Assembly (NCBI GenBank): GCA_021413925.1
Contig: JAIOPL010000001.1
Coordinates: 62,001-126,000 of the forward strand
Length of the DNA: 64,000 bases
DNA from: Verrucomicrobiota bacterium
GTDB taxonomy: Bacteria > Verrucomicrobiota > Verrucomicrobiia > Chthoniobacterales > UBA6821
Reading direction: 5' to 3'
Under the pieces are notes generated by a model, which made no database searches, was not told the origin of the DNA, and was given only the letters and a program-made list of their open reading frames with translations. Position 1 is the stretch's first letter. Each line of letters begins with the position of its first letter. A program made the position numbers and the translations under genes. Positions 15,826-33,404 of the stretch are shown here, in pieces.

Positions 15826-16089
15826 TCAGCTGTTCGGTGAGGAGGAGAGGGGCCGCTCCTGATTCAACTCTCGGCAGGTCTTGACCATGATCCAGATCAT
15901 GAAGCTCACCACGGAAAAGAAAACGCCCAGCAGGAGCAGGGTGCTGGAGGAAAAGGCCATCTTGGACGTCATGGTCAGCGGTTCAATGAGGCCGCCGGAG
16001 CTCTTCAGGGCACAGTCTGGACAGGCAACAGCACTTTGAACGGCCAGGAAAAGGGCCGACAGAGCAAGGGAAGGCTTCAAGAACTTCAT
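15826..16089 (-). CDS. Small secreted/membrane CPDC protein of the oxidase cluster
   Basis: The product has 87 residues. A signal-like N-terminus (FLKPSLALSALFLAVQS) ends just before ACPDCALKSSGG. After a short polar segment comes one membrane helix (SSTLLLLGVFFSVVSFMIW) and a polar Ser-rich tail. The CPDC pair would face the outside and could be a thiol-redox or copper site. The start overlaps the SCO stop by four bases, which argues for a real, coupled gene. I do not recognise a named family. Confidence 0.65.
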   Translation of the reverse strand: MKFLKPSLALSALFLAVQSAVACPDCALKSSGGLIEPLTMTSKMAFSSSTLLLLGVFFSVVSFMIWIMVKTCRELNQERPLSSSPNS

Positions 16090-16784: not shown

Positions 16785-17441
16785 TCAGATGAGATAGAGA
16801 ATCGTGTAGAGGAGAACCCAGACCACGTCCACGAAGTGCCAGTAGAGGCCCACGTTTTCGAGGGCGACATGACGCTTTGCCGTGAAGGTCCCCTTGGTCA
16901 CCTGAAGGAAAAAGCACCAGAGGATCAGGAGGACGCCAATGCAGACATGGGCGCCGTGGAATCCCGTGAGCGTGAAGAAAGTGGAGCCGTAGACACCGCC
17001 TTTGTTGAACCAGAGGCCCTCATGGTAGAGCTCCGTCCACTCGATACACTGGATGCCGACAAACGTTGCTCCCATCAGCGCGGAGAGGAGCATCCATCCT
17101 GCACCTGATTTCCCTTTTTTTACCGCCACTTCGGCAAAGTGATAGACAAAGGAACTGGAGACTAGGATCACCGTATTGATGCCGGTCAGGAGCTTTGGCA
17201 TCGGAGGAAGCTCGATACCATCACCGAAATTCGGCGGCCAAGAACCAGCCGCCTGCCGAAGCACGAGATAGGTTGCGATTAGTCCGCCGAAGAGCATTGC
17301 CTCAGAGCAAAGGAAAATGCACATGCCCAGCTTGCAGGTCGCGGGTGCGGTAGGCGGAGCTGCATGATGGTCATGCTCGGAAACAGACGCGACCATGGGC
17401 GCGTGAAAGAGGGCGGAGTCGTTATAGGCTGCGTTATTCAT
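16785..17441 (-). CDS. coxC: Cytochrome c oxidase subunit III
   Basis: This 218-residue membrane protein belongs to the subunit III family, which surrounds the oxygen path of subunit I. Landmarks are KLGMCIFLCSEAMLFGGLIATYL near the start, STFFTLTGFHGAHVCIGVLLIL, and the ending YWHFVDVVWVLLYTILYL. With about five helices it is a short form. It is unusual that it lies after ctaB and not next to coxA. The N-terminal His-rich stretch (SEHDHHAAPP) resembles that of CoxA. Confidence 0.92.
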   Translation of the reverse strand: MNNAAYNDSALFHAPMVASVSEHDHHAAPPTAPATCKLGMCIFLCSEAMLFGGLIATYLVLRQAAGSWPPNFGDGIELPPMPKLLTGINTVILVSSSFVYHFAEVAVKKGKSGAGWMLLSALMGATFVGIQCIEWTELYHEGLWFNKGGVYGSTFFTLTGFHGAHVCIGVLLILWCFFLQVTKGTFTAKRHVALENVGLYWHFVDVVWVLLYTILYLI

Positions 17442-17588: not shown

Positions 17589-18485
17589 TTATTGGCGAGC
17601 GAAGGCGATCAGCACCCCAAGCAACAGCGGGAGGTAGATGATCGAGGCGAAGAAAAGACGGCGAGCCGAAGCGTTGGTCCTGTTCCTGATAAAAGCCACT
17701 GAGAGATAAATCATTGCGGCACCAAGGGCCAGTGCTGCAAAGAAATAGTAGGGGGAGGCCATCCCGAGGATACCCGGCAGGAGTGAGACGCCTAGAAGAG
17801 CCACGGAATAGATGAGGGCCTGCCACGCCGTGGACCATCCATCTGGGTCGCGAGTGCTGAGCATCTTGAATCCGGCCGCCGCATACTGGTCACGATAGAG
17901 CCAGGCGATGGCCAGGAAGTGAGGCATCTGCCAGAACCAGAGGATTAGAAAGAGGACCCATCCACCCAGACCTAGGTGATCTGTAGCGGCGGTCCATCCC
18001 AGCAATGGAGGAAGCGCCCCGGGGATGGCCCCGACAAGGGTATTCAGCTCCGTGAAACGCTTGAGCGGGGTGTAGAGGGCGGCGTAAATGAGAATAGTTA
18101 ATCCCGCCAGCAACGCGGTCAAGGGATTGGCGAAGAAGGCAAGGATCGCAACCCCGCAACCACTGCAGAGCAAACCGAAGAGTAGGGCGTCGGAAGGGTG
18201 CATCCTGCGGGCAGGCAAGGGACGGTCCGAGGTCCTTGGCATCAGTGCATCGAGATCACGCTCCAGCCACTGGTTGAGGGCCGAGGCTCCGGCGGCACTC
18301 AGGGCCGTACCGAGTAGCGTGGCTACAAGCAGCGTGTAATCCATCGGGCCCCTCCATCCGAGCAGAAATCCGACCAGAGTGGTCATCAGGACCAGGAAGG
18401 AGAGACGCGCCTTTGAAAGCTCGCTCAGATTGGAGAGAAGTCCCACCTTGACCTCGGATTTCACGGTTCCCTCGGAAGCGCTCAT
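17589..18485 (-). CDS. ctaB: Protoheme IX farnesyltransferase (haem O synthase) CtaB
   Basis: This 298-residue UbiA-superfamily enzyme attaches farnesyl to haem B to give haem O, the precursor of haem A. The prenyl-PP/Mg2+ site is NQWLERDLDALMPRTSDRPLP, and the second conserved loop is YTPLKRFTELNTLVGAIPGALPPLLGW. Nine membrane helices are visible. Its start overlaps the ctaA stop (ATGA), so the two are coupled. The presence of both genes implies an A-type haem in the oxidase encoded alongside. Confidence 0.95.
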   Translation of the reverse strand: MSASEGTVKSEVKVGLLSNLSELSKARLSFLVLMTTLVGFLLGWRGPMDYTLLVATLLGTALSAAGASALNQWLERDLDALMPRTSDRPLPARRMHPSDALLFGLLCSGCGVAILAFFANPLTALLAGLTILIYAALYTPLKRFTELNTLVGAIPGALPPLLGWTAATDHLGLGGWVLFLILWFWQMPHFLAIAWLYRDQYAAAGFKMLSTRDPDGWSTAWQALIYSVALLGVSLLPGILGMASPYYFFAALALGAAMIYLSVAFIRNRTNASARRLFFASIIYLPLLLGVLIAFARQ

Positions 18486-19444
18486 GAGAGTGCCTCCCGA
18501 GAGTGAGATGTACCGGGGGATTCCGAACCGGCGCAGAAGAGCCGGAAGGTGAAGAGAATACCGAAGGCTGTCAGCAGCGCCCCGAGCGCCATGTGGGAGG
18601 TGGCGACATCAGCCGCCTTATTCGTCCAGATTGTCACAGCCCCAAGCAGGATCTGAAGCAGTATAGCGCCCACCCAGAGAAGACTCCAAACGCGGAGCCA
18701 ATGTCCTAGAGGCGTCCGGGCCACGGCCAGCGCGGCGGTGGCGATCACGATAAGCAACAGCACAAAGGCTCCGGCACGGTGGGTCAACTGCAAGTGGATT
18801 TGAGCGACAGAAACAGGAGCTATCTTGTCATTGGCCCTCTCTTTGTTGATGCGCGTCAGGGCGCCCTCCGAGGTATCAGGAATAAGCGTGCCGTAGGCGG
18901 CTGGGAAATCACGGATCGCAAGCGGAGCGTGTTGGTGGCGGATGGTCGCGGCGATACCCAGCTGGAAATAGGTCAGCACAAGGCCGGCTAGCACGAGCCA
19001 ACGAAGGGAGGCTGCCGCGCTGTCGGCAAACCAGACTCCCGAACGGAATCCCCTCCCCGTCACGGCGGTGATCACCAGCAGCAGGCCGAAGAAACTCTGG
19101 GCAAGCGCCGCATGGAAGATGCCGATCTGGTCCTTGTAGAGGGTCACGCGGAGACCACCGAGCACGCCCTGTGCTATCACGCCGATCACGGCCGCCACGG
19201 CCAGCCATTTCACCCAGGTTCGTTGTTCCTTCCAAAAGGTTACGCCGGCAAGCACCAGTGTGATCAGGCCGATTCCACTCGCCAGCAACCGATGCGAGTG
19301 CTCCCAGAAGATACCTCCTACCCACTTTGAGTAAGGAAAGAGGAACATGTTGTACCCGTAGGTGGTCGGCCAGTCCGGAACCGACATGCCGGCCCCCTTC
19401 GAGGTGACAAGGCCTCCCACAACAATCAAAAGGAATGTAGCCAC
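18482..19444 (-). CDS. ctaA: Haem A synthase CtaA/COX15, N-terminus uncertain
   Basis: CtaA oxidises haem O to haem A. The family signature GGLVTSKGAGMSVPDWPTTY follows the first helix, then FWEHSHRLLAS with a haem-ligand His, and the internally repeated half has THRAGAF and THMALGALL. The frame from the GTG at 19444 starts within the first membrane helix. In-frame sequence continues upstream as LWQRLGALIAS to a stop, with only CTG (19477) or rarer start codons available. The true start may be CTG, or there may be a sequence error. It is coupled to ctaB. Confidence 0.88.
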   Translation of the reverse strand: MATFLLIVVGGLVTSKGAGMSVPDWPTTYGYNMFLFPYSKWVGGIFWEHSHRLLASGIGLITLVLAGVTFWKEQRTWVKWLAVAAVIGVIAQGVLGGLRVTLYKDQIGIFHAALAQSFFGLLLVITAVTGRGFRSGVWFADSAAASLRWLVLAGLVLTYFQLGIAATIRHQHAPLAIRDFPAAYGTLIPDTSEGALTRINKERANDKIAPVSVAQIHLQLTHRAGAFVLLLIVIATAALAVARTPLGHWLRVWSLLWVGAILLQILLGAVTIWTNKAADVATSHMALGALLTAFGILFTFRLFCAGSESPGTSHSREALS

Positions 19445-19502: not shown

Positions 19503-21302
19503 CTAGTGGGATTCCAAAGTGATGTGGGCGGGGGCCTTCTCATTCTGAGGCAGGAAATCCCTTGCCAGACCGGGAACGCTATACTCGTAGGGACCGTGAT
19601 AGACAGTCGGCGTCACTGCAAAGTTTCCGTGAGGGATCGGATGGGAAACCGTCCACTCCAGGGTGGTGGAGTTCCAGGGATTCGCAGGGGCCTTGGGACC
19701 ATTCAACATGCTCCATACGATATTCACGACAAAGGGAATGGTGGCGAGTCCGAGGCCCATCGCCCCGATCGTGCAGACAACATTCAGGGGTTGGAGCTGC
19801 TTGAGGCAGTCGTAGACTGTCGGATCGGCAATGCGTCGCATCATGCCTCCAAGGCCGAGATTGTGCATCGGGAAGAAGGTCAGGTTAAAGAAGACGAAGG
19901 TCATCCAGAAATGGATCCAACCGAGCGTGTTATTGAACATTCTGCCCGACATCTTTGGGAACCAAAAATAGACTGCTGCGAAGATCGCGAACATGCTACC
20001 TCCGAAGAGGACGTAGTGGAAGTGGGCGACGATGAAGTAGGTATGGTGAACGAAGAGATCCACAGGCGTAGAAGCCATGAAGATGCCGCTGAGGCCGCCG
20101 ATGACGAACATTGAGACAAAGGAGACAGCAAATGCCATCGGCACCGTGTAGTGGATCGACCCGCGCCAGATCGTCCCCATCCAGTTGAAGGTCTTGATAG
20201 CACTAGGAACCGCGATGACCATCGTCGAGACGGAGAAAGCCGCACTCAACGTGAGGTTCATGCCACTGACATACATATGGTGTCCCCAGACGATGAATCC
20301 GAGGAAGCCGATCGAGATCATTGCCCAGACCATGGCCTTGTAGCCGAAGACGGGCTTGCGGGAGAAAACCGAGAGAATTTCAGACGTGAGGCCGAACGCA
20401 GGCAGGATAAGGATGTAAACCTCGGGGTGCCCGAAAAACCAGAATAGGTGCTGCCAGAGAAGAGGTTGCCCGTAACCGGAGGGGCGGTAGAAAGTGGTGC
20501 CGAAATTTAAATCGAAGATGATCAGGGCCGCCGCCGCCGAAAGAACGGGGATCGCCAGAATGAGTAGGATCGCTGTCAGAAAGATCGCCCAGACGGGAAG
20601 CGGCATCCGAAACATTGTCATTCCGGGAGCCCTCATCGTGATCACGGTGGTGATGTAGTTGACCGCTCCGGTGATCGAGGAGAGACCGTTGATAAAGAGG
20701 GCGGCGCACCAGAGGCTCTGACCCATGGGCGTCTGGTTGTAAGCAGCAACACTACTGAGCGGAGCATAGGCGGTCCATCCGGTGCCTGGAGCGCCTCCTG
20801 GCACCCAGAAGGAGCTCAACATGATGACCCCGGAAAGAGCGAAGAGCCAGTAGCTCAACTCGTTCAGAGCAGGAAAGGCCATGTCACCGGCCCCGATTTT
20901 GAGCGGAATGAGGAAATTTCCGAAGACACCGATAAGCAGTGGCATCGCCACAAAGAAGACCAAAATAGTACCGTGCATGGTAACCAGCACGTTGTATCCA
21001 CTCGGAATAATGGCCCCCTCGTCGTTCACGACACTATGGGGAAGGAGATTACCAATCAACGGAATGGGGTGACCGGGAAAGGCCAACTGCCAACGCATCG
21101 CCAAGGCCATCGCACCGCCGAAAAGAAGGAAGATCAAGGCAGACCAGAGAAACTGGAGCGCGATCATCTTGTGATCGGTGTTCCAGAGGTAGTGCATGAT
21201 GCCGGGCTTCCCCTGCACATGTCCATGACCATGGTCATCATGATGACTGCCACCGTGGGTCTCCACGGTCGAGAGGCTGTCGTGGGTGAGTGAGTTACTC
21301 AT
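19503..21302 (-). CDS. coxA: Cytochrome c oxidase subunit I (A-type)
   Basis: This 599-residue catalytic subunit should have twelve helices. The high-spin haem/CuB ligands are visible in HPEVYILILPAFG, which carries the cross-linked Tyr and the D-channel Glu, in VWGHHMYVSG, and in YFIVAHFHYVLFGG, which has both haem ligands of helix X. All six expected histidines are therefore present, unlike in the CcoN-like protein nearby. The N-terminus is His-rich (HGGSHHDDHGHGH). It starts four bases after coxB. Proton-pumping reduction of O2 to water is the inferred role. Confidence 0.96.
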   Translation of the reverse strand: MSNSLTHDSLSTVETHGGSHHDDHGHGHVQGKPGIMHYLWNTDHKMIALQFLWSALIFLLFGGAMALAMRWQLAFPGHPIPLIGNLLPHSVVNDEGAIIPSGYNVLVTMHGTILVFFVAMPLLIGVFGNFLIPLKIGAGDMAFPALNELSYWLFALSGVIMLSSFWVPGGAPGTGWTAYAPLSSVAAYNQTPMGQSLWCAALFINGLSSITGAVNYITTVITMRAPGMTMFRMPLPVWAIFLTAILLILAIPVLSAAAALIIFDLNFGTTFYRPSGYGQPLLWQHLFWFFGHPEVYILILPAFGLTSEILSVFSRKPVFGYKAMVWAMISIGFLGFIVWGHHMYVSGMNLTLSAAFSVSTMVIAVPSAIKTFNWMGTIWRGSIHYTVPMAFAVSFVSMFVIGGLSGIFMASTPVDLFVHHTYFIVAHFHYVLFGGSMFAIFAAVYFWFPKMSGRMFNNTLGWIHFWMTFVFFNLTFFPMHNLGLGGMMRRIADPTVYDCLKQLQPLNVVCTIGAMGLGLATIPFVVNIVWSMLNGPKAPANPWNSTTLEWTVSHPIPHGNFAVTPTVYHGPYEYSVPGLARDFLPQNEKAPAHITLESH

Positions 21303-21306
21303 AAGA

Positions 21307-22248
21307 TTAAAGTTTATTTCCTACGGTCGGGGCGGTCAAGGAAGTCGCCTTTGCAGGACTTGGAACTGCAACAGGAAGAGATGGAGGAGCAGGTGAGATC
21401 CCCGCATTCTTCTGCTGACGAGGAGTCAGCCACTTCTGAAACTCCTCTTCAGAGACAATCTTGATCGGGGCCTTCATATTGTAGTGACCGGTTCCGCAAA
21501 GCTGGTTGCACGCTAGTTGAAAGTCACCGGTCTGTGTTGCTTGAAACCAGACCCAGCCGATGGTTCGGCCCGGAACACAATCCTGATAGAGGCGGAACTC
21601 AGGCACATAAAAGGAGTGGATCACATCGCGGGAGTGAAGAAGAACATGGACAGGACGGCCAACTGGAATCACGAGATCCGTGGTAATGACATCCTGGGCC
21701 GTCTTGGGGTTCTCGGGATCGGTGCCGAAAGGATTCTGCGGGGTTATGTTGCGTACATCCATCGGGGCGAGCTTGCCGCTAATTCCCGGATACCGCATCT
21801 GCCACCCGAACTGGTAGCTGGAGACATCGATGGTCAGGGCGTTATCGGGCGCCGGTCGGTGGATCTCCTCCCAGACACGGTTGCTATAGATGGCGAGAGC
21901 AAGGAAGATGATGGTTGGGGCCGTGGTCCAGATGATCTCCAGCTTATTGTTGCCATGGCTGTAATGGGCGGGAACTCCTGGTCGACGACGATAAACAATC
22001 AGGTAGTAAATGTAGACCCCCTGGGTAACAACGAAGACCACGGCCGTCAGCCAGAAGATCATCTTGATAATCGAGTCAATCTGCAGACCAGTGGTCGTGA
22101 CACACGGCGGTAGTCCGTAGATGTTGCCATTGCGCTGCTCGGCCAAGAGACCTCCCGCCATTAGCATGGATGCGAGAAAAATGCCGCCCGTCAGGCAACG
22201 GGAAGCCATCCGTTTGGTGAAGAGTGAGAAAAACATGGCGGTGATCAT
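21307..22248 (-). CDS. coxB: Cytochrome c oxidase subunit II
   Basis: The 313-residue protein has a signal-like first segment, two membrane helices and an exported cupredoxin domain. The CuA site is complete: the His in SRDVIHSFYVPEF, and CNQLCGTGHYNMK with two Cys and a His. No cytochrome c domain is fused. The C-terminus is a Pro/Ala-rich tail. A separate mono-haem cytochrome gene overlaps its start by four bases and probably replaces the caa3-type fusion. Confidence 0.95.
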   Translation of the reverse strand: MITAMFFSLFTKRMASRCLTGGIFLASMLMAGGLLAEQRNGNIYGLPPCVTTTGLQIDSIIKMIFWLTAVVFVVTQGVYIYYLIVYRRRPGVPAHYSHGNNKLEIIWTTAPTIIFLALAIYSNRVWEEIHRPAPDNALTIDVSSYQFGWQMRYPGISGKLAPMDVRNITPQNPFGTDPENPKTAQDVITTDLVIPVGRPVHVLLHSRDVIHSFYVPEFRLYQDCVPGRTIGWVWFQATQTGDFQLACNQLCGTGHYNMKAPIKIVSEEEFQKWLTPRQQKNAGISPAPPSLPVAVPSPAKATSLTAPTVGNKL

Positions 22249-22889
22249 TTCGTGGCCGGAGCAGGTCCTGCAGGAGCGGCGGGCTTGACTGGAGGAGTAG
22301 CCAGGAGTTGCTCCTGGGTCCAGGAATCAGTCTGGGCAGCGCCGGCTTTCCGGATTTGGGCAACAAAGTCAGCCGTGATAGCGGAGGCATTGTTACCCCA
22401 GTCGGAACGGATGTAGGTCAGGATGTCGGCGATCTGGTCGTCCGAGAGTTGCTTCCATGGCACCATGGCGTTGTTGTATTGCTGCCCCTTGACTTCGAAG
22501 GTCCCCTGCAGGCCGTTCAGGACAAGCATCACCAGATGATTTTCCGCGTGCTTCCCCTCGGTAAGCACCCACTCGCTGCCAGCAAGCGGAGGAAACTGGC
22601 CCGCCACCCCCATGCCGTTCGGTTGATGGCAGACAACGCAGTTCTGCGTGTAGAGGCGCTTGCCAACGACCTTGGGATCCACGGGAGCCGCAGCAGTAGC
22701 ACCACCGCCGGCCCAGTTCACGGCATTGCTCTCATAGACATCCTGACGAAATCCACCGCTGTTAAAGCCGAGGTAGAGGCCACCCCAAATCAGAGCCAGC
22801 ATGAAGGCTCCGACAAGCCAAGGAGACAGCGGCCTATTCGTCTCCTCAGTTACTTCCTTGGGATGTTGGTTGTGGTGATCGTTATTCAC
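22245..22889 (-). CDS. Membrane-anchored mono-haem cytochrome c
   Basis: The product has 214 residues, with a cytoplasmic start (GTG), one anchor helix (LVGAFMLALIWGGLYLGF) and a class I cytochrome c domain. The haem motif is CVVCH, followed by PNGMGVAGQFPPLAGS, and the axial Met is probably in NAMVPWKQL. The C-terminal Ala/Pro-rich tail resembles that of CoxB. Its gene directly precedes coxB, and it likely carries electrons from alternative complex III to CuA. Confidence 0.88.
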   Translation of the reverse strand: MNNDHHNQHPKEVTEETNRPLSPWLVGAFMLALIWGGLYLGFNSGGFRQDVYESNAVNWAGGGATAAAPVDPKVVGKRLYTQNCVVCHQPNGMGVAGQFPPLAGSEWVLTEGKHAENHLVMLVLNGLQGTFEVKGQQYNNAMVPWKQLSDDQIADILTYIRSDWGNNASAITADFVAQIRKAGAAQTDSWTQEQLLATPPVKPAAPAGPAPATK

Positions 22890-22908: not shown

Positions 22909-23547
22909 TTATTTTGCAGCCCCGATCTTCTTCACGGGAGCCTCCGGCAACGGGTAATCATGGCGCAGGGAAAGGAGATAGGCGACGAGGTTTTTGGCGT
23001 CGGCTGTGGGAACTACTTCATAGCCCTCCTGCGGAGCATCGTCCCCCGTCAGTGCAAGAGCCTCGTTGGATCGCTGGCCCTGGATCTTGCGGATAAGGAA
23101 AAGATCGCTGAAGCAGGGCATGAGCGACCCCTCGCAGACGGCGGAGGGATGGTAGAGGTGGATTAAGTGCCACTTGGCATCGGGACGACGCACACCGACG
23201 TTCGTGAGATCCTGCCCAAGGCGGCGTGATCCCAGGAAGGCCGTTGAGTCACGCAGATAGTCACGGGCTACAGAGGGACGAGCACCCCAACCCCGATCAA
23301 TATCCGAAGAGGTAATGCTGGTCTGGCGCACTTGCTGGCTATGGCAGGAAATGCAACCCTCGGTCGCGTAGACGCGCTGTCCTGCAATGGCTTGACCGCC
23401 ATAGGTAGGGGGAAGGGAGCCCCCGTTATCGGCATCGGCTACTGGAGTGAGACGACCAAGCTGGAGAGCCGGATAAGCGACGAGGCCGAGCCAAGAAGTC
23501 AGGAAGACCAAGAAGATACCGCTCAGCAATGTAGGGAGACGATGCAT
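22909..23547 (-). CDS. CcoO/FixO-like mono-haem cytochrome
   Basis: The 212-residue protein resembles CcoO, the mono-haem subunit of cbb3 oxidases. It has one N-terminal helix (LLSGIFLVFLTSWLGLVAYP), then EGCISCHSQQVRQ with haem cysteines C65 and C68, a WGARPSVARDYLRD segment, and LGQDLTNVGVRRPDAKWHLIHLYHP. GSLMP supplies the likely Met ligand. CcoO normally works with CcoN, and the gene follows a CcoN-like gene whose product has lost its metal ligands. No CcoP or CcoQ is nearby. Confidence 0.85.
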   Translation of the reverse strand: MHRLPTLLSGIFLVFLTSWLGLVAYPALQLGRLTPVADADNGGSLPPTYGGQAIAGQRVYATEGCISCHSQQVRQTSITSSDIDRGWGARPSVARDYLRDSTAFLGSRRLGQDLTNVGVRRPDAKWHLIHLYHPSAVCEGSLMPCFSDLFLIRKIQGQRSNEALALTGDDAPQEGYEVVPTADAKNLVAYLLSLRHDYPLPEAPVKKIGAAK

Positions 23548-23548
23548 G

Positions 23549-25006
23549 TTATTTCCCGTTGTGCTTGTTAAGGAGATAATCACCCGCCAGAGCAAACGTG
23601 ATGTTCGCGCCAAGAGTCAGCATGGCTATAAGGAGCAGCAACTGCGCCACACATTCCATCAAGTGAAAGGGGTAGGAGTAGGAGGTTATGTTGAGGAAGG
23701 AGACTGTGGGATCGGCAAGGGCAAGCCCAGTAAAGAGACCTCCGAGAAGCATCAAGACGACCAGCATACCGAGCCCCACCAAGGTCAGGATGTAATGGCG
23801 TCCCGCGAGCACCGGACACCAGCAATCGCGCCCGAGGAGTTGGGGCAGCGACTCGTAAAGCACGCCGAAAAGTGGCAGGGAGATGGCTCCTAGGATCCAG
23901 AGCTGGGTCTTAGCCTCAGTGAAGGCGGTGAACCGGACAGCTCCGCTGACATCCGGCAAGGAGGCGAGCGCTCCGATCACGCCAACGATGACTAGCGCAT
24001 AGAGCCCCATCAGCAGAAAGCGACCAGGAAGACTTGCAGAAACAATGACTTCATTGCGAGGCATCCCGAGGAGATTGATCGAGATCATGATGATCGGAAT
24101 CAGGAAAAGGACTCCGGCGACCACACCGGCAGAAGTCATCCAGGCTGGAACGGGTCCTCCGATGAGGCGGTCCATGCCATTCCATCCTCCAAGGAGAAGA
24201 AGCATCCAGAACCCGAGAGTAGAAAGATTGGGACGGTTCATGAGGCATCCCAGAAGTCGGGGAAGCAGCGCATAGGCGGATGCAAGCGCCACTGGTAACA
24301 GCCAGAGGGCCAGCAGGCTGCCGCAGTACCATGATTGGATCGGGCCTTGAGCCGAGGCCTGAACAGGCTTCCAGGTGAGGAGGAGATTGGCCGTTCCGTA
24401 AACCCATGGGAACCAGCAGAAGGCAGCGACAAGATACCACTGGGCCACCTCGGCGCGAGGGTTGCTCCGGCGATCAAAAAGCAGAACCGCCCAGATTCCG
24501 ATCAGCAGGAATGAGAGCAGGAGCATCGCGGAAGCCCAGTTGGGATACTCGAGCCATTCGACACCCGTGCTGTAGCCTGCGAAGATCGCGAGCGTTCCGA
24601 GTAGGACAGCCAGATTCCAAAGCACCGTTGCGCTGATGATCAACGTCCTGAGCAGCATGCCACCCATGCCCTGGCCATCTCCACCACCGAGAGGACGACC
24701 ACAGAGGCGGGCCATGAGCCAGACGCCGGCGCCAATCGCAGCTTGAGAAGCCCATCCGTAGAGCATGAGATCGCGGGCCATCGGAGCAAGGCGACCGTAG
24801 TTCAGGAAGCTGATACCTCCAAGGAATCCGGGAGCGATCAACTTGATGGAAACAACAAGAGAGAGTAAACAGGCGATCACTAGCCAGTGGATGGCGTTTC
24901 CGAAGAGGATGATCACCGGCAAGCGGACCGAGGCGTCGATGGCCTTGTTGTCGACGGGTTCATGACCCGGCGCGGGATGATGATGGGGAAGGGTGTGATG
25001 GCTCAT
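23549..25006 (-). CDS. CcoN-like oxidase subunit I homologue lacking all haem and copper ligands
   Basis: The ATG at 25006 gives 485 residues with about twelve helices. Landmarks of CcoN are recognisable, but each metal ligand is replaced. NYGRLAPMARD (69-79) has no His where CcoN has GRLRPLH. IQSWYCGS (223-230) stands for WWYGHN. GGWNGMDRL (273-281) lacks the HH pair. FTEAKTQLW (362-370) lacks the HxH of helix X. Outside a His-rich N-terminus, only H40, H404, H448 and H482 remain. It cannot be a normal oxidase and may be a structural or quinol-binding subunit. Confidence 0.8.
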   Translation of the reverse strand: MSHHTLPHHHPAPGHEPVDNKAIDASVRLPVIILFGNAIHWLVIACLLSLVVSIKLIAPGFLGGISFLNYGRLAPMARDLMLYGWASQAAIGAGVWLMARLCGRPLGGGDGQGMGGMLLRTLIISATVLWNLAVLLGTLAIFAGYSTGVEWLEYPNWASAMLLLSFLLIGIWAVLLFDRRSNPRAEVAQWYLVAAFCWFPWVYGTANLLLTWKPVQASAQGPIQSWYCGSLLALWLLPVALASAYALLPRLLGCLMNRPNLSTLGFWMLLLLGGWNGMDRLIGGPVPAWMTSAGVVAGVLFLIPIIMISINLLGMPRNEVIVSASLPGRFLLMGLYALVIVGVIGALASLPDVSGAVRFTAFTEAKTQLWILGAISLPLFGVLYESLPQLLGRDCWCPVLAGRHYILTLVGLGMLVVLMLLGGLFTGLALADPTVSFLNITSYSYPFHLMECVAQLLLLIAMLTLGANITFALAGDYLLNKHNGK

Positions 25007-25019
25007 GGCAATGGCAAGG

Positions 25020-25358
25020 CTATGGTTGGCCCTCCTTGGGAGCTTTGTTCGCAGAGTTTTGCAGGGTCGGAAGGACCAGTTCCAGCGCCCTGCCGATCGG
25101 AATATGGACGATTCCCTTGGCTTGATCATTCCAGCCATAGGTGGTGAGGGCGTTCGAATCGGCGGCCTGAAGCTCCGCGAGATTCTTCGTACGGACGGCA
25201 GCCCGGTCTGCATCTTCCGTTTCCGTGGCGGTGTTAGAGCGGTTGAGCCAGAGACCTCCTAGCACAGCCGCGAGCAGTAGAATCAGAACTCCGATCCAGA
25301 GCAGAATGCCGGTCGATAACCGCGGGTTTTCAGAATTGGACGTATGATTGTGGCTCAT
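25020..25358 (-). CDS. Small one-helix protein of the alternative complex III operon
   Basis: The 112-residue product has one membrane helix (ILLWIGVLILLLAAVLGGLWL) and a soluble part that ends the conserved region with YGWNDQAKGIVHIPIGRALEL. Proteins carrying this YGW-(D)-IPI-RAxEL pattern are frequent beside alternative complex III and oxidase genes, and their role is not established. The start codon shares one base with the actF stop, which argues for translational coupling. Confidence 0.7.
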   Translation of the reverse strand: MSHNHTSNSENPRLSTGILLWIGVLILLLAAVLGGLWLNRSNTATETEDADRAAVRTKNLAELQAADSNALTTYGWNDQAKGIVHIPIGRALELVLPTLQNSANKAPKEGQP

Positions 25359-26590
25359 CAGTCGATGTAGTTGACGGCCTCAGCTAGACGGGGATCCCGC
25401 GAGGGCCAGAGTGGTGAATCGCCGAGGCGCTTCAGGAAGAAGGCACTCAGCGTGCAACCGATCGCAAGAAGCGAGACGACGTCTAGGACGGCAGGGTGGA
25501 AACCTTCCGGATGCAACACGGGCAGGATCATTGTATAAACGTCCAGCAGGTGCATGCAAAGAATCCAGCCAGCGACCAGACCGAGGAATCCGGAGCTGGC
25601 CTTGGGACCACGGAAGAGCAGTAGGACAAAGGGAACCAAGAAGTGGCCGACCACGAGAATGATCCCCAGAACATTCCAGGACGAAGAGGAGCGCAGGACG
25701 TAGTAAACGCTCTCTTCGGGGATGTTCGCATACCAAATGAGCATGTACTGGACGAAGGCAATCCAAGACCAGAAAAGCGTGAAACCAAGCAGTAACTTAC
25801 CAAAGGCGAAGTTATGCTGAGCAGTCAGCACTTTCTTAAGATAGCCGGCGGAGCGAAGTGCATTCGAGAGCAGTATGATGACGCAGAGTGCCGATAGTAC
25901 TGATCCGGCGAAGATGTAGAGTCCCCAGATCGTTGAGTTCCACTTCCAGTTCAGACCCATGATCCAATCGATCGACCAGAAAGTGAGTGAGATGGCACCA
26001 ACCGGCACCAGGAAGAAGGCGACCCTGCGATTACGGATGGTGTGGATGGCTTCGCCATCCTTGTCCTGAGCCAAGGAATTACGACGGAGCAGCAGTGCTC
26101 CAACTCCGAAGAGCAGGAAGTAAAAGACCGTGCGAACCCAGAAGAAATTCACATTCAGGAAGGCGGATTTTTCTGCCAGCTCATGGTTGGTAGAGGGCGA
26201 CAAAGCCATCCATGTCCAGAGATCCGAAGCCACAAAAAGAAGCGGCACCAGCAGCAGGGTCAGAAGCGGCAGCAGACAGGAGATATTCTCCAGTTGTCGT
26301 CGGATTCCGACGCTCCAGGCCGCATCCACTGCATGATGAACGACGATCCAGAAGAGCGATCCGATCAGGATCGTGAAGAAGAAACACCCTGCAAACAACC
26401 ACGAGAAAGCGAACTGGTGGGGATTCGCTAGCCCGAGGATCAGCGAGAGCAAAAGCGTGAACAAGGCTGTCACACAGAGCCCGACAAAACGTCCGCCGAC
26501 ATGCTTGTAGTCGAAGGTCTCGGCGGGCGGAAGGATTCCGGATGCCGATCGTGCTTGCTGTGCAGGGAGTGATTTGTGTTCAGCGATCAT
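25358..26590 (-). CDS. actF: Alternative complex III subunit ActF
   Basis: The 410-residue integral membrane protein has about ten helices and is related to the NrfD-like ActC. Motifs of the ActF group are VGLCVTALFTLLLSLI, HHAVDAAWSVGIRRQLENI, FFWVRTVFYFLL, and WIAFVQYMLIWYANIPEES. ActF helps form the membrane part of the quinol:cytochrome c oxidoreductase. It overlaps actE by four bases and the next small gene by one. Confidence 0.9.
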   Translation of the reverse strand: MIAEHKSLPAQQARSASGILPPAETFDYKHVGGRFVGLCVTALFTLLLSLILGLANPHQFAFSWLFAGCFFFTILIGSLFWIVVHHAVDAAWSVGIRRQLENISCLLPLLTLLLVPLLFVASDLWTWMALSPSTNHELAEKSAFLNVNFFWVRTVFYFLLFGVGALLLRRNSLAQDKDGEAIHTIRNRRVAFFLVPVGAISLTFWSIDWIMGLNWKWNSTIWGLYIFAGSVLSALCVIILLSNALRSAGYLKKVLTAQHNFAFGKLLLGFTLFWSWIAFVQYMLIWYANIPEESVYYVLRSSSSWNVLGIILVVGHFLVPFVLLLFRGPKASSGFLGLVAGWILCMHLLDVYTMILPVLHPEGFHPAVLDVVSLLAIGCTLSAFFLKRLGDSPLWPSRDPRLAEAVNYID

Positions 26591-27327
26591 GGCTTGGCGG
26601 GGCCGGTTGTGGCGGAAGCCGCGTTGGTGCCGGTGAGTGCGGCACGACTAGCCGCGGGCACGTCGTTGATCGTCGCATTCTGCGAACGCTGCAGGGCGCG
26701 CATGTAGGCAACGATGGCCCAGCGGTCTGGCACCTGGATCACCGAACCGTAGCCCATCATCGTATTCTTGCCGTTCACGATCGTGTTGTAGATCTCGCCA
26801 TCACTCATATCGCGAATGCGCTGTTGCTGTAGGTTGGCGACGCCGACCAAGCCATATTTTGTAGCGATACCATTGCCGGCTCCCGTGGCGCCATGACAGA
26901 CGGCACACTGAATCTGGTAACGCTCGCGTCCCCGTTCCAGAGTAGCCATGGTCGCGGAGAAGGGAATGCCATTGCCCCAGTTCGTTCCGATCTTGCCCGT
27001 GTCGGCATAGTCCTGCTTGCCGGAGAAAACAACAACGCTGTAGGGACTTCCCATGGTAGCGATTCCCTCAGAGGCCTGAGCACTGGACTCTGGAGCCGAG
27101 TAACCAACAGGAACAGTCCCGGCTACATTCGCACGAGCGCCGCGTCCATCGTCATAGAAGTCGCTCGGGGCCTGCGCCTTGACTTTGTCCTGACGGACCA
27201 TATCGGGGAAGATCTCGATCGGAGGACGCTTGGTCTTGTGCGGCAGAAAGGAGTAGTCGCGCAGTCCGGCGATGGAGACCACCAGGATGGTGATCAGGAC
27301 AAGAAGGAAAAGGAAATAGCGTACCAT
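26587..27327 (-). CDS. actE: Alternative complex III cytochrome c subunit ActE
   Basis: The 246-residue protein has an N-terminal anchor (YFLFLLVLITILVVSIAGL) and one haem motif, CAVCH, in a class I cytochrome domain. NTIVNGKNTMMGYGSVI contains the probable Met ligand. The PIEIFPDM motif near the start is typical of ActE. A low-complexity Ala/Thr tail ends the chain. It probably passes electrons from ActA/B onward. The order actD-actE-actF is the usual one. Confidence 0.92.
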   Translation of the reverse strand: MVRYFLFLLVLITILVVSIAGLRDYSFLPHKTKRPPIEIFPDMVRQDKVKAQAPSDFYDDGRGARANVAGTVPVGYSAPESSAQASEGIATMGSPYSVVVFSGKQDYADTGKIGTNWGNGIPFSATMATLERGRERYQIQCAVCHGATGAGNGIATKYGLVGVANLQQQRIRDMSDGEIYNTIVNGKNTMMGYGSVIQVPDRWAIVAYMRALQRSQNATINDVPAASRAALTGTNAASATTGPAKP

Positions 27328-27332
27328 GGCAA

Positions 27333-27935
27333 TTATTTCTCTTCTGAGGCCTCCTGATGGATGGCGGTGATGTCACCGGCACCGAGTTCATGGAGTAGCT
27401 CGGTCAGGGCCGAGGTTGAGAATTTCCGGTCGCGGGCTTCTATGGCAATGAAGAAACCGCGCGAAGCATCCTTGGCAAAGAGATCCCAGGCAAACATCGG
27501 ATTATTCCATCGGGGCATCCCCCCCAGCAGGATCATCCCCGTAACGGCCGTGATCGCGCCGATCATGAGGGTCAGGGCCACCACGATAGGAACGTACTGA
27601 GGCAGCGCCAGAAGATTGAGAGGCTTCCCGTCAACCACCAGTGGATAGATGATGCAGCTGGGGATCAGTTGCATCGAGAGAGCAATCAGGACCGCGGAAA
27701 CACCCCCACCCAGGACGAGTAAGCTCAGGATTGATTTGGGGAGCTTCATCGCCTCGGCAAGTCCGTGAATAGGGTAGGGGGTGAAGCACTCGTAGAGTGA
27801 AACTCCCTCGTCGCGGAGGCGATCGACGGCATGGACAAGGGCCTCAGGCGTCTCGAATCGGGCTCCAAGAGCATAGAGAGGCTCCTCTTTGGAACCAGCA
27901 ATCGGCAGGTGATGACCTTGAAAATGATTGCTCAT
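27333..27935 (-). CDS. actD: Alternative complex III subunit ActD (DUF3341)
   Basis: From the chosen ATG the product has 200 residues. A soluble start (ALGARFETPEALVHAVDRLR) is followed by YPIHGLAEAMKLPKS and two membrane helices (LLVLGGGVSAVLIALSM and PIVVALTLMIGAITAVTGMIL). The remaining chain is the cytoplasmic DUF3341 end. The upstream in-frame Met at 27983 lies inside actC, so the later start, one base after the actC stop, is preferred. Confidence 0.92.
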   Translation of the reverse strand: MSNHFQGHHLPIAGSKEEPLYALGARFETPEALVHAVDRLRDEGVSLYECFTPYPIHGLAEAMKLPKSILSLLVLGGGVSAVLIALSMQLIPSCIIYPLVVDGKPLNLLALPQYVPIVVALTLMIGAITAVTGMILLGGMPRWNNPMFAWDLFAKDASRGFFIAIEARDRKFSTSALTELLHELGAGDITAIHQEASEEK

Positions 27936-27936
27936 C

Positions 27937-29382
27937 TCAGTGTGTTTCCTCCGCGGAATTGTTGGAATGACTCGCGCCAGCATGAGGCTGGGTACCTGGC
28001 AGGACAGCCTTCAACTCGTTCATGCTCATGATTGGCACAAACCGGATGAAGAGCAGGAAGAGGGTGAAGAAAATGCCAAGTGTTCCGGTAGCCGTCAGGA
28101 TATCGACGATTGTCGGGTGGAAGTTCCCCCAGGAAGAAGGAAGGAAATCGTGCGTGAGCGTCGAGGTAACGATCATGAAACGCTCGAACCACATGCCGAC
28201 ATTGCAGAGGATCGCAAGAATGAAGACCAGCGGAAGGCAGCGGCGGACCGCCTTGAACCAGAAGAGTTGAGGCACCGTCAGATTGATCGAGAGGCAGGTG
28301 ATGGCGTACCAGCTGCAACTGCCGGTGAAGCGCTCCCAGAAAGCCCCGCGCTCGAAAGGATTCGCGCTATACCAGGCATTGAAGAGCTCGAACACATAGA
28401 CATAAGCCACGCAGGAACCCATCATCAGGAGGAGCTTGCAGACCTTGTCGAGTTGGGACGGGGTAATCAGATCCCTGAGCTGAGGATAGATCAATCGCAA
28501 CGGAAGCAGCAGCGTCAGGATCGCCGCACTGCCGCTATAAACCGCGCCGACCATAAAGTAGAACGGGAAGATCGTGGCATGCCATCCAGGAATCACCGAG
28601 GTGGCGCAATCGCTGGCCACGATCGTAGTGACGGTCACCACCAGCACAGAGGTAAGCCCGGCTAGCAGGACATACATCATCTCGTAATGGCGCCATTGAC
28701 GCGCCGTACCAAGCCATCCTAGGGAGACGATACCGTAGGCGAACTTGCGAACTTTTGTCGTGGCGCGGTCTCGAAGGACGGCCAGATCGGGAATCATGCC
28801 GGCGAACCAGAAGAGCGAGGAGACAGTCAGGTAACTCGTCACTGCGAAGACATCCCAGAGAAGAGGGCTCGAGAAATTCGGCCACATGCCATAGCTGTTC
28901 GGCACAGGGAAGAGGAACCAGACAAACCAGACGCGGCCGATATGGATCGCGGGATAGACGCCGGCGCAGATAATCGCAAAGACCGTCATTGCTTCGGCCG
29001 CTCGGGAGATCGAAAGACTCCACTTCTGACGTGTCAGAAAGAGCAGGGCCGAGATGAGGGACCCGGCATGCGCCATAGAAACCCAGAAGATGAAATTGGT
29101 AATATCCCAAGCCCAGAAGCAAGGGCTGTTTGATCCCCAGACACCCACACCGGTGCAGATCATGTAGAGGATGCAGGCTCCGCCAATCGCAGCGAAGGTG
29201 CCCGTGAAGGCGATCGCTGCATACCACCAGAGCGGGGTTTTCCCTTCAACAATTGAACAGACCGCGTCAGTTACCCAGAGGGGGCCGCGGTTGTTGAGTA
29301 CCTGCGGCGGACGCTCCAAGACATGAAGGTCTGGCGTCTCAGTCTCGGCGGCAGTGATGATCGAAGGAGTGGACATGGACAT
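27937..29382 (-). CDS. actC: Alternative complex III quinol-binding subunit ActC (NrfD-like)
   Basis: ActC is a 481-residue membrane protein of the NrfD/PsrC family with about ten helices. It is thought to hold a quinol site facing the iron-sulfur subunit. SMAHAGSLISALLFLTRQKW, GRVWFVWFLFPVPNSYGMWPNF and GWHATIFPFYFMVGA are family segments. The start may be at 29382 or at the Met two codons on. It follows actB after eight bases. Confidence 0.94.
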   Translation of the reverse strand: MSMSTPSIITAAETETPDLHVLERPPQVLNNRGPLWVTDAVCSIVEGKTPLWWYAAIAFTGTFAAIGGACILYMICTGVGVWGSNSPCFWAWDITNFIFWVSMAHAGSLISALLFLTRQKWSLSISRAAEAMTVFAIICAGVYPAIHIGRVWFVWFLFPVPNSYGMWPNFSSPLLWDVFAVTSYLTVSSLFWFAGMIPDLAVLRDRATTKVRKFAYGIVSLGWLGTARQWRHYEMMYVLLAGLTSVLVVTVTTIVASDCATSVIPGWHATIFPFYFMVGAVYSGSAAILTLLLPLRLIYPQLRDLITPSQLDKVCKLLLMMGSCVAYVYVFELFNAWYSANPFERGAFWERFTGSCSWYAITCLSINLTVPQLFWFKAVRRCLPLVFILAILCNVGMWFERFMIVTSTLTHDFLPSSWGNFHPTIVDILTATGTLGIFFTLFLLFIRFVPIMSMNELKAVLPGTQPHAGASHSNNSAEETH

Positions 29383-29390
29383 GCTCGCTC

Positions 29391-32300
29391 TTAGGAATGG
29401 TCTGCCTGTTCAGCGCCACGATTCGCGGCGCCGACGAGATCGGCTCCCGGCATCGCAGGGTTGGGATTGCGGATCCTTGCCATGTAGGTCACGCGGGGAC
29501 GCGTGTTCAGATAGGCAAGTGAGGAATAGGTGCGTGGGTCGGCCTTGGCCTGTGAGACGGCGCTCTTGGGATCATTGATGTTGCCGAAGACGATCGACTC
29601 GGATGGGCAGGCCTGCTGGCAGGCGCTCTTGAAGACTGGGAGAGGGGTCTTGGTGACATCACTGGCACCGGCCTTGACCGAGCGGGCGATCTTCGCCTCC
29701 TCGATGCGCTGGATGCAGAAGGTGCACTTCTCCATGACACCGCGCATACGGACAGTCACGTTAGGGTTCTTCGACATCTTGAGGCTGTCGGCCATTCCCT
29801 TCGGTGCAAGCGGTCCGTAGTAGAGCTCATCCAGCGGACGCTCGTTGTAGTCGAACCAGTTGAAGCGGCGGACCTTCCAGGGGCAGTTGTTCGCGCAGTA
29901 GCGGGTACCAATGCAACGGTTGTAGGCCATCAAGTTCAGACCCTCCTCGCTGTGGACGGTTGCGTTCGCCGGGCAGACCGCCTCGCAGGGTGCGCTCTCG
30001 CACTGCTGACACATGATGGCCATCGGGATCATCTCGAGGCTTTCCTCCTTATGATCCGCGCTCGCGAACCAGCGGTCGATGCGGATCCAGGCCATATCAC
30101 GGCCGCGGCGGACCTGATCCTTGCCGACGACCGGGATGTTGTTCTCAGCCTGGCAGGCAACGATGCAGGCATTGCAACCGATGCAGGAGTTGAGATCGAC
30201 CGAGAGCCCCCACTGGAGATCGGAGGTAAGGGGGGGATTCGGGTAGATGGAGATCGGCTCCGGCAGTTCGCCATCCATTTCGCGGGCGAATTCGGGCTGC
30301 TTCTGGAGGGTAGCAAGAGTTCCCGTACGGGCGAGGTTGCGACCTTCCATGTTCTGGTGCTCCTGGGTGCGGGCAAAGACGTAGGAATCCTTGGGCAGAG
30401 CCTGCACCTTGACGCCCGATCGGAAGCAAAGGCTTGAGGAATGACGCAGCGGGTAAGCGTCAAATCCAACGTTCTCCATCACATGGGAGACGCCCTTGCG
30501 GCCGTAGCCGAGGGCGATGCTCAGCGACTTGTCGACATGGCCGGGAGCAACGATCGCCGCGGCCTCGATCGAGCGGACTCCTGCAGTTATCTTCAGCCAA
30601 TCACCATCCTTGATGCCAAGCATGCGGGCGTCGGCCGGGCTGACAAGAGCTGCATTATCCCAGACCAGCTTGGTGACATAGTCAGGGGTTTCCTGAAGCC
30701 AGGAATTATTCGCGTAGCGGCCATCATCGATGCTGGAACTGCGTAGGAAGACCACTTCGAAATCTTTGGAATCCAACTTCGGAGCCGACTGAACCGCAGC
30801 AAGCGCGGCGGAGGCACTAAAGGAAGGCTTGGAGACCGGCCATGCGGTTCTGGCCGCAAACCCGTTTCTCAGGAACTCATTCCAAGATGCATCGGAGCCA
30901 TCCTTGGTCACTGATGAAAAGGTGGTTCGGACTACGGAAGGCCCGTCGACTTTCTCTCCGGCCAAGGCGGCAAGGATCTCGAGGGACGAAATGCCATTCC
31001 AGAGCGGCAGGATCATCGGCTGGACGGAGCAGATTGTTCCGTCGATCGATCGGGCATCGCCCCAGCGCTCGAGATAGTGGGCGGCAGGCACCTGCCAATG
31101 GGTCACCTTGCTGGTCTCATCAACGAACTGGGAGAGATGCAAGGTCTCGGCAACTCCAGACAGCAGGTTCGGAAAATTCAATTCAGCAGGGGCGGTGAGC
31201 ACTGGGTTGCCCTCTAGGATGAGCAGGGTCTTGACCGAACCTGAACCCATGGCCTTTGCGAGATCGGCAAGCGTTGCGGCGGGCTTCATTCCGGTCTGGA
31301 CCACATTGATGGTCGAACCAAGATTGCCGAGCGTGTTGTTGATGCCTAGGGCCATCGCCTGCACCGCGACGGACTGACCGGCTCCCAGTATCACAACTCC
31401 CTTACCCTTGGCTGAGATGAGGTCATCAGCCACGCCGTTTACCCATGCAGGGTCAAAAGAGACACCCGAAGCGGGATATGCCGCCGCCAGCGAGGAGAGG
31501 GATGTGTTGCCCGACTTCGTGGCGATGACCTTGGCTAACGCAGCAGTGAAGTCACCGATTTCACTGGCTCGCACACGGAGGCGATGGTCGGCCATTCCGC
31601 CTGTGAGCGAGAAGTGATTCTCGACCACATAAAGACGATTCATGGTTCTCCCATTGGAACCATTAGGATTGCGCCGCTTTGCAAAGCCCTTTGCGAATCC
31701 AAGTCCGCTCTCGGAGGGATTCAAGAAATCACTGCCTAGTGAGAGGATCACGTCGGCCTTCTTGAAATCATAAACGGGCCGAGCGCCGGCACCTAGCAGA
31801 GAGTCGAAGGCGGCTTCATCCGACTGGATCGCCTCATCCTGCACCCATAGAAGCTTGGGGAACTGGGAGGTGAGTTCCGTCCGGAGACGCTCGACGGTCG
31901 GTGAGTTCTCCTTGCCGACCACGATCGCAAGCCCGTCACCGCCATTGGTTCCCGCAGCAGCGCGGATCTTGGAGATTAAAGAGTCCAGGTCGGAGCGGGA
32001 GGCCTTGGCGAAGTCCCGGGTGATCTCCTTGGATCTGTAAGGGTCGTAGAGGCCCAAGATAGAGGCCTGGGCAAAGACGTCGGTCGAGCCGTTGCTGACG
32101 GGATGAAGTGGGTTGCCCTCGATCTTGGTGGGACGACCGTCCGAGGTCGTGATAGTGAGCGGCACAGCTCCCGCCGGGGTCGGCATGGAGCTGGCGTAGT
32201 AGAGGAACTTGCCGGGGATCGTCCACTCGGCGCTCTTCGCGAAGGGAACGAGATGAGCCTCGGGACGGCGGCAACCAGTGAGTCCGACGCCGGTCAGCGC

Positions 32301-32492
32301 GGTAGCTGCTCCCATCAGACGGACGAAGTCGCGGCGGGAGAGATTGTTATCCTCACCATCGGATCCCGCGGCGCCGGGAGTGAACTCGCGGGCGAGATCT
32401 TCGGCAAAGGCAGGCGAGTTCTCGCGCTCTCCCTGACTTCTCCAGAGGGCTGGCTTCAGATCACGCGTGGGATGTTGGAAAATCTTTTTCAT
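29391..32492 (-). CDS. actB: Alternative complex III subunit ActB (molybdopterin-like domain plus iron-sulfur domain)
   Basis: ActB has 1033 residues from the ATG at 32492. A twin-arginine signal (SRRDFVRLMGAATALTG) is followed by a Cys and a catalytic-type domain homologous to molybdopterin oxidoreductases, but without an evident N-terminal Fe-S cysteine set. The C-terminal ferredoxin-like part has CIGCNACIVACQAEN, CQQCESAPCEAVCPANAT, CIGTRYCANNCPW and CTFCIQ, enough for several clusters. It wires ActC to the haems of ActA. Its start overlaps the actA stop by four bases. Confidence 0.95.
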   Translation of the reverse strand: MKKIFQHPTRDLKPALWRSQGERENSPAFAEDLAREFTPGAAGSDGEDNNLSRRDFVRLMGAATALTGVGLTGCRRPEAHLVPFAKSAEWTIPGKFLYYASSMPTPAGAVPLTITTSDGRPTKIEGNPLHPVSNGSTDVFAQASILGLYDPYRSKEITRDFAKASRSDLDSLISKIRAAAGTNGGDGLAIVVGKENSPTVERLRTELTSQFPKLLWVQDEAIQSDEAAFDSLLGAGARPVYDFKKADVILSLGSDFLNPSESGLGFAKGFAKRRNPNGSNGRTMNRLYVVENHFSLTGGMADHRLRVRASEIGDFTAALAKVIATKSGNTSLSSLAAAYPASGVSFDPAWVNGVADDLISAKGKGVVILGAGQSVAVQAMALGINNTLGNLGSTINVVQTGMKPAATLADLAKAMGSGSVKTLLILEGNPVLTAPAELNFPNLLSGVAETLHLSQFVDETSKVTHWQVPAAHYLERWGDARSIDGTICSVQPMILPLWNGISSLEILAALAGEKVDGPSVVRTTFSSVTKDGSDASWNEFLRNGFAARTAWPVSKPSFSASAALAAVQSAPKLDSKDFEVVFLRSSSIDDGRYANNSWLQETPDYVTKLVWDNAALVSPADARMLGIKDGDWLKITAGVRSIEAAAIVAPGHVDKSLSIALGYGRKGVSHVMENVGFDAYPLRHSSSLCFRSGVKVQALPKDSYVFARTQEHQNMEGRNLARTGTLATLQKQPEFAREMDGELPEPISIYPNPPLTSDLQWGLSVDLNSCIGCNACIVACQAENNIPVVGKDQVRRGRDMAWIRIDRWFASADHKEESLEMIPMAIMCQQCESAPCEAVCPANATVHSEEGLNLMAYNRCIGTRYCANNCPWKVRRFNWFDYNERPLDELYYGPLAPKGMADSLKMSKNPNVTVRMRGVMEKCTFCIQRIEEAKIARSVKAGASDVTKTPLPVFKSACQQACPSESIVFGNINDPKSAVSQAKADPRTYSSLAYLNTRPRVTYMARIRNPNPAMPGADLVGAANRGAEQADHS

Positions 32493-33148
32493 CGGTGGCA
32501 GCCTCCGCAGTTGACGGGTGGATTGACCTTCCACTCCTCTTTGAACTTTGTTCCCAGCTCACGCTGCGCCTCGGGCGAGGCGGGATGCCAGTTCATGTTA
32601 AAGATCTCCGAGGGAGGGCGAAGGAAATTCTCAGGGGCGCGATGGCAGTCCAGGCACCACTTCATGCTGAGTGACTCGGCCTCGTAGACAACGCTCATCT
32701 CGTTTACTGCACCATGACAGCTGTAGCAGCTGACCCCACGGTTCACATGGACCGCATGGTTGAAGTAGGCGTAATCCGGCAGGCGGTGGATCTGCACCCA
32801 AGGAATCGGCTGGCCTGTCTCCCAGCTGTCGCGCACAGCGGCCAGACGGGGACTGTTCGGCAGGATCTTGCCCTGGCCATGGCAGTTGATGCAGGTCTGG
32901 GTGGCAGGCAGGTTCGAGTGACCGGCTACCTCGACGAAGCTATGGCAATAGCGACAGTCCATCCCGAGCTGCTTCACGTGCAGGGCATGGGAGAAGGGCA
33001 CCGGCTGGTCGGGCTGATAGCCGACGCGGGTGTACTTCGGCGTGAAATAGTACCAGATCCCGAGAGTGATGGGTCCACCGATCACCAGGCCGCAGACAAG
33101 CAGCTGGAGCGGAAGCCAATTGGCCCATCTGGGAAAGAAATTCGACAT
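32489..33148 (-). CDS. actA: Alternative complex III pentahaem cytochrome ActA
   Basis: The 219-residue protein has one N-terminal anchor (LQLLVCGLVIGGPITLGIW) and five CxxCH motifs in order: CRYCH, CINCH, CYSCH, CLDCH and CGGCH, the last at the C-terminus. HALHVKQLGMDC and HAVHVNRGVSC supply distal His ligands. Five haems match ActA exactly. It is the first gene of the respiratory cluster, so its promoter should lie in the gap up to 33404. An earlier in-frame Met at 33223 would add 25 residues without a signal and is less likely. Confidence 0.94.
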   Translation of the reverse strand: MSNFFPRWANWLPLQLLVCGLVIGGPITLGIWYYFTPKYTRVGYQPDQPVPFSHALHVKQLGMDCRYCHSFVEVAGHSNLPATQTCINCHGQGKILPNSPRLAAVRDSWETGQPIPWVQIHRLPDYAYFNHAVHVNRGVSCYSCHGAVNEMSVVYEAESLSMKWCLDCHRAPENFLRPPSEIFNMNWHPASPEAQRELGTKFKEEWKVNPPVNCGGCHR

Positions 33149-33404
33149 TCGGGTGTTAGAGAAACGCCCGGATGGAGGAATTCTCAGGCCTGAACAGAGT
33201 AGAAAGTCAGCGGCCGAAGGCAAGAAATTTGCCGCAAAAAATCAAGAAGAGCCGAATGATCTCGCGCAGCCGTAACGTATGCGAAGCAACGGCCGGGCAA
33301 GCAAACGCAGAGAACGCAGAGAGAAGAAAATGAGAAATCTCTTTTTCCTGAATTCCTTATTTTATGCTCACGCCTATGATTGCGAAACATTCAACGGCAT
33401 CCCT
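33149..33404. other. Divergent intergenic region between actA and the DUF192 gene
   Basis: This gap should hold the promoters of both the respiratory cluster and the DUF192 gene, but I cannot identify convincing -35/-10 pairs. It holds one copy of the 25-nt hairpin repeat (33269-33293, minus orientation) and next to it ACGCAGAGAACGCAGAGAG (33304-33322) of the CTCTGCG-type family. Confidence 0.6.
33269..33293 (-). repeat. 25-nt hairpin repeat, copy 1
   Basis: Read on the minus strand it begins GCCGTTGCTTCGCAT and ends CGTTACGGC. The GCCGT and ACGGC ends pair. TTTGCTTGCCCG precedes it, as in copy 2. It differs from copy 2 in one loop base. Confidence 0.75.

Follow-up and report, generated by a model that had tools for sequence, protein, structure and literature searches.

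The window, a stretch of 64,000 nucleotides from a verrucomicrobial genome, carries on its minus strand an operon that opens with the genes of an alternative complex III (ACIII), in the order and with the haem content of such operons (actA with five haems, actB, actC, actD, actE with one haem, actF). The operon continues through a small single-TM protein, a relative of the oxidase subunit CcoN, a CcoO-like subunit, a cytochrome c, coxB and coxA, and ends with the genes for Cox15-like and CtaB-like proteins, coxC, and the genes for an SCO-like and a DUF420 protein (Table 1). The CcoN relative encoded at 23549-25006 and its counterparts elsewhere are here designated N′. The small single-TM protein that precedes N′ has relatives at the same spot in many related loci.

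Table 1. Genes of the ACIII-oxidase operon in the window
Feature	Position	Strand	Basis
ActA, pentahaem cytochrome c	32489..33223	(-)	five CxxCH
ActB, molybdopterin-like + Fe-S	29391..32534	(-)	translation + synteny
ActC, NrfD-like	27937..29382	(-)	translation + synteny
ActD	27333..27983	(-)	translation + synteny
ActE, mono-haem cytochrome c	26587..27327	(-)	one CxxCH
ActF, integral membrane subunit	25358..26590	(-)	position + conservation in ACIII clusters
Small single-TM protein between actF and N′	25020..25358	(-)	motif YGWxDxxKGxxxIPIxRAxEL; no Pfam family above cut-off
N′ (ligand-free CcoN relative), 485 aa, 12 predicted TM helices	23549..25006	(-)	phmmer/Pfam/NCBIfam homology, AlphaFold2, Foldseek
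CcoO/FixO-like mono-haem cytochrome c subunit (CISCH), membrane anchored	22909..23547	(-)	Pfam FixO E=5.6e-19
Mono-haem cytochrome c (CVVCH), N-terminal anchor, CcoP-like	22245..22889	(-)	Pfam Cytochrom_C 3.6e-15; weak FixP_N, ccoP matches
CoxB, CuA motif, no fused cytochrome c domain	21307..22248	(-)	TIGR02866 153 bits; no CxxCH
CoxA, A-type oxidase catalytic subunit	19503..21302	(-)	TIGR02891 638 bits
Cox15-like	18482-19444	(-)	translation
CtaB-like	17589-18485	(-)	translation
CoxC	16785-17441	(-)	Pfam COX3 8.5e-28
SCO-like	16086-16760	(-)	translation
DUF420	15370-15807	(-)	Pfam DUF420 4.5e-38

The placing of actA-F beside an A-type oxidase operon recalls, at the level of genes, the ACIII-oxidase supercomplex of Flavobacterium johnsoniae. 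As reportedly described by Sun and colleagues in 2018, ACIII is there joined to a caa3/aa3 oxidase, a cytochrome c passes electrons inside the assembly and no CcoN-CcoO module is present. The operon in the window differs in that CoxB lacks a cytochrome c domain and in that an N′-CcoO-cytochrome c module lies in between. The COX1-family genes of the whole source genome are coxA and N′ only, and CoxA is apparently its sole canonical haem-copper oxidase; cytochrome bd is also present. With CoxA and cytochrome bd of its own, the organism has no requirement for an oxidase function of N′.

The CcoN relative and its metal-ligand sites

The N′ reading frame of the window has no internal stop, and the similarity of its product to CcoN extends over the full length of the protein. 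A phmmer search matched CcoN of the PDB with E=6e-9 over residues 38-468, the Pfam COX1 model scored 99.5 bits and the NCBIfam ccoN model scored 62.8 bits, far under its cut-off of 583; a profile built from the N′ family matched 9g6b with an E of 4e-73. The AlphaFold2 model, computed from a 31-sequence alignment, reached a pLDDT of 90.7 and a pTM of 0.92, and a Foldseek search with it placed seven CcoN chains at the top, with NorB behind, the top match being the CcoN chain 3mk7_A (TMt 0.90, rmsd 2.2). These results confirm what an earlier note on this DNA had proposed, that N′ is a true, full-length CcoN homologue, and the 12-helix fold is intact in prediction.

An identity as NorB was considered because the family lacks the cross-link tyrosine, which is missing from NorB of cNOR (3o0r, 4xyd) as well; the two proteins belong to one fold superfamily. 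This identity was rejected on both sequence and structure, which lie nearer to CcoN: the family profile scores 45-52 bits for NorB versus 224-250 for CcoN, and NorB is the weaker structural match (TMt 0.81-0.85). N′ further differs from NorB in having no ligands and in its partners, which are CcoO and cytochrome c rather than NorC. With CcoN of cbb3-type (C-family) oxidases N′ shares the fold, the full-length homology and the succession of CcoO-like and CcoP-like genes, but its gene sits behind actA-F, outside any cbb3 operon, and all six haem and copper ligands are absent together with the cross-link tyrosine.

Ligand sites were placed by in-register alignment of N′ with intact CcoN and with relatives that retain six ligand histidines. 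The histidine pair of the low-spin haem b (helices II and X) is replaced by A77 and Q368, the proximal histidine of haem b3 by K366, and the three CuB histidines by G229, D279 and R280, leaving 0/6 histidines. The earlier note had read the same loss by eye, and the residues that it quoted (G71-R72-L73, W226-Y227-C228-G229-S230, GGWNGMDRL and FTEAKTQLW) are correct. The histidines that N′ does contain are residues 3, 4, 8, 9, 10 and 15 of the disordered N-terminus and residues 40, 404, 448 and 482. In cbb3 oxidases one of the CuB histidines is cross-linked to a tyrosine of helix VII (PMC8780969); the matching position in N′ is G283, and all 50 six-His members of the N′ clade have Gly or Ser there.

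Judged from the alignment, the absence of ligands is not a matter of chance. The six ligand columns, invariant in the 50 six-His relatives, rank at the 7th-38th percentile for conservation in 70 ligand-reduced sequences, and the steepest drops in conservation between the two sets occur at and around the metal pocket. It is unlikely that N′ nonetheless keeps a redox role by coordinating at least one haem, or copper, with non-canonical ligands. Ligand-reduced relatives in other clades do keep 1-3 of the six histidines, and SCO-like and haem A synthesis genes lie close by, although these serve the CoxA oxidase. Set against this, the helix ends carry no conserved pair of His, Met or Cys in the clade of the window protein; only H404, which is not a ligand, is histidine in more than 50% of the 70 ligand-reduced sequences; and the replacement sets differ between clades (AGDRKQ, SESHFV, QQRHQQ, ASAQLQ) and therefore offer no common new ligand set.

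Maintenance, distribution and repeated ligand loss

Ligand loss usually signals lost function, and some ligand-free lines have longer branches, as might be expected of a decaying gene hitch-hiking in an essential operon. This reading retains practically no probability, since it is refuted by selection and conservation, in keeping with the earlier note's judgement that decay was unlikely. In pairwise comparisons within the genus, N′ has a dN/dS of 0.06-0.17; ActB, CoxB and the cytochrome c share this range, and ActC and CoxA lie somewhat lower. Across the 70 ligand-reduced sequences 45 positions are strongly conserved. N′ is full length in nearly all genomes, with a match in 14/15 good family genomes and in 129/147 order genomes, a few of the weaker hits at order level being qNOR-type genes. 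The compared genomes are mostly metagenome assemblies. A scan for N′ relatives in viral contigs found none.

The arrangement of ActA-F, N′, CcoO and cytochrome c is widespread in the class Verrucomicrobiia. When loci of 9 kb or more are considered, N′ is accompanied by two or more Act genes in 57/59 ligand-reduced cases versus 19/31 six-His cases. In both ligand-reduced exceptions N′ lies close to one end of a short contig (10-11 kb). The ligand-free form is conserved next to actA-F, a point that the earlier note had put forward for checking. The haem motif of CcoO is found in all 59 ligand-reduced loci of this size and in 30 of the 31 six-His ones, and in 122 aligned relatives of the CcoO-like subunit CxxCH is conserved in 100% and M143 in 93%. 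A CuA motif occurs in all 47 members of the CoxB set, and a fused cytochrome c domain in 0/47. Raw counts in the loci of at least 9 kb show coxA nearby in 40/59 ligand-reduced versus 4/31 six-His cases; on the tree these reduce to four independent pairs with a non-significant sign test, and therefore no link between ligand loss and a neighbouring coxA is claimed.

Within the Verrucomicrobiia, counterparts of N′ in the same operon position range from six ligand histidines down to zero. A maximum-likelihood tree of 145 sequences, which is a quick tree with long branches at L100, L182, L190 and L192, places ligand-reduced forms in four separate places, apart from the single row L040, and requires a minimum of five changes of ligand state. 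A single origin of ligand loss was rejected, the one-clade constraint costing 204.6 log units with a p-AU of 0.00025 in the AU test, and by this phylogenetic evidence the ligands were lost at least four times. The losses are nested among six-His forms that are themselves linked to ACIII; in one strongly supported clade two rows, L072 and L137 (A,A,V,N,Q,Q), lie among six-His relatives. The row L040 (G037:C100) retains five of the six histidines (HRHHHH), with the first CuB histidine changed to Arg, and possibly represents a first step of ligand loss.

Beyond the Verrucomicrobiia, a few Planctomycetota have six-His relatives, with act genes nearby in the case of L274. So do Burkholderiales, where these relatives belong to an N-CcoO-cytochrome c-SCO operon without act genes that looks like an ancestral copper-bearing reductase. 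As the cross-link tyrosine is already missing from six-His members, the ancestor of N′ was perhaps an NO reductase-like enzyme.

Several further CcoN families were encountered. Fused CcoN-CcoO proteins of the same class and phylum (L157-L160, L155) score above the NCBIfam cut-off and keep all six histidines, and their cross-link site is Asn in L157-L160 (HHLLNTALP for HHLLYTALP) and Phe in L155. Several six-His families from Planctomycetota (L244-L265) and Burkholderiales (L266-L272), many without the cross-link tyrosine and many with a CcoO-like neighbour, are possible undescribed NO or O2 reductases. On one Planctomycetota contig (L078) a six-His relative is split over two frames, which reflects either a genuine frameshift or a fault in the assembly.

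Proposed role beside alternative complex III

The reading that we favour, and regard as probable, is that N′ is a formerly catalytic CcoN that has become a cofactor-free membrane platform for c-haems between ACIII and CuA, which makes the redox-inactive scaffold suggested in the earlier note the best account. N′ would have its origin in the catalytic subunit of a haem-copper reductase of the C family, organised as a CcoN-CcoO-CcoP-like unit, whose genes would have entered the ACIII operon early in the Verrucomicrobiia. Several lineages, that of the window included, would then have lost catalysis and exchanged most or all of the residues that bind haem and copper. What may have preserved the 12-helix body is its continuing task of anchoring the CcoO-like mono-haem cytochrome and of docking the second mono-haem cytochrome c beside ACIII. 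Electrons would pass from quinol through ActB, ActA and ActE to the CcoO-like haem, then to the cytochrome c, the CuA of CoxB and finally CoxA. We infer this path, the assembly of N′ with ACIII and CcoO, and the absence of bound haem from N′ itself.

Several lines of evidence point in this direction. A gene that is strictly kept in an electron-transfer operon after all of its ligands have been lost probably encodes a structural platform for electron carriers. CoxB with a CuA motif and no fused cytochrome c domain implies a need for a separate c-haem carrier; since the haem motif of CcoO is kept, a chain of single c-haems (ActE, the CcoO-like subunit and cytochrome c) leading from ActA to CuA would be the simplest route. 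In genuine cbb3 oxidases CcoN holds CcoO in place, and N′ could therefore do so without metals. The six-His relatives in the same operon position, the repeated loss and the haem-intact partners together suggest a carrier of c-haems. Six-His members are likewise accompanied by CcoO and cytochrome c, however, and so these partners alone are no proof of a scaffold. Many ligand-reduced loci (19 tree rows) have no coxA within about 10 kb, and direct hand-over to an adjoining oxidase is therefore not universal.

N′ could also be pictured as a subunit that binds quinol or conducts protons and so gives ACIII a further means of energy conversion; its intact 12-helix fold, with the conserved polar residues R72, N131, N311 and H404 lying within or near the helices, could accommodate such a path. 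We consider such a role improbable: no conserved quinol-site signature was identified in N′, the cytoplasmic loops are its least conserved part, and ACIII already has its own quinol-oxidising subunits. The quinol-binding subunit linking complex III and the oxidase that the earlier note offered as its other option accordingly finds no support. A broader version, for which we see only a small chance, is that subunit I, once a metal-bearing enzyme, became on four or more independent occasions a cofactor-free component of an enlarged ACIII and may contribute a quinol or proton path beyond holding cytochromes. Also improbable is a function of N′ outside the mature complex, in the assembly or biogenesis of the oxidase, the cytochrome c or the CcoO-like cytochrome. 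Biogenesis proteins of the Cox15, CtaB and SCO types are encoded in the same operon, but the structural CcoNOP gene order is copied everywhere, and the six-His relatives in the same place look like real enzymes.

Published cbb3 oxidases beside ACIII

The favoured reading, a membrane platform for c-haems, bears on other members of the phylum. Genome G294, which we take to be Methylacidiphilum strain Kam1, has two A-type, one ba3-size and one NorB-size COX1-family gene in addition to an ACIII-linked N′, and no second CcoN was found among these genes. The ligand sites of its N′ read S,E,S,H,F,V, and the best match of the predicted model is CcoN (TMt 0.81-0.86). Genome G186, presumably strain SolV, shows the same pattern of an ACIII-linked N′ with replaced ligands and no other CcoN; G242 is assumed to be Opitutus terrae.

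A C-type oxidase adjoining ACIII has been reported only from verrucomicrobial methanotrophs and Opitutaceae (PMC8498564, citing Refojo 2010), and in the methanotrophs the cbb3 oxidase has been linked to high oxygen affinity (PMC6688271), the assignment being repeated in PMC10205796 and PMC11102522. These loci share with the window the gene position and homologous N′, CcoO and cytochrome c (L196-L198, L203, L184), but they were published as encoding a working high-affinity oxidase (PMC6688271, PMC8498564), whereas their CcoN lacks ligands. By sequence and model, the ACIII-adjacent "cbb3 oxidase" of Methylacidiphilum is the same type of protein as N′ and is probably not oxygen-consuming. With the Kam1-type sites and no other CcoN in the genome, the affinity must therefore come from another oxidase. 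A 2-residue insert in "cbb3 subunit 1" has been proposed as a marker for Verrucomicrobia (PMC3444138), and this marker may derive from N′ sequences instead of a genuine oxidase. No report of missing ligands in ACIII-linked CcoN was found in the literature searched, which was mainly non-subscription papers.

To our knowledge, no subunit I of the haem-copper superfamily has been shown to persist without any metal ligands, and here a ligand-free form is widespread in one bacterial class. With N′ proteins ranging from six ligands down to none at one and the same place in the operon, the order and the consequences of losing catalysis become open to study. The finding also corrects the published cbb3 oxidase account for verrucomicrobial methanotrophs (PMC6688271, PMC8498564, PMC10205796, PMC11102522), and the explanation of their high oxygen affinity by an ACIII-adjacent cbb3 oxidase (PMC6688271) is undercut by the ligand-poor N′.
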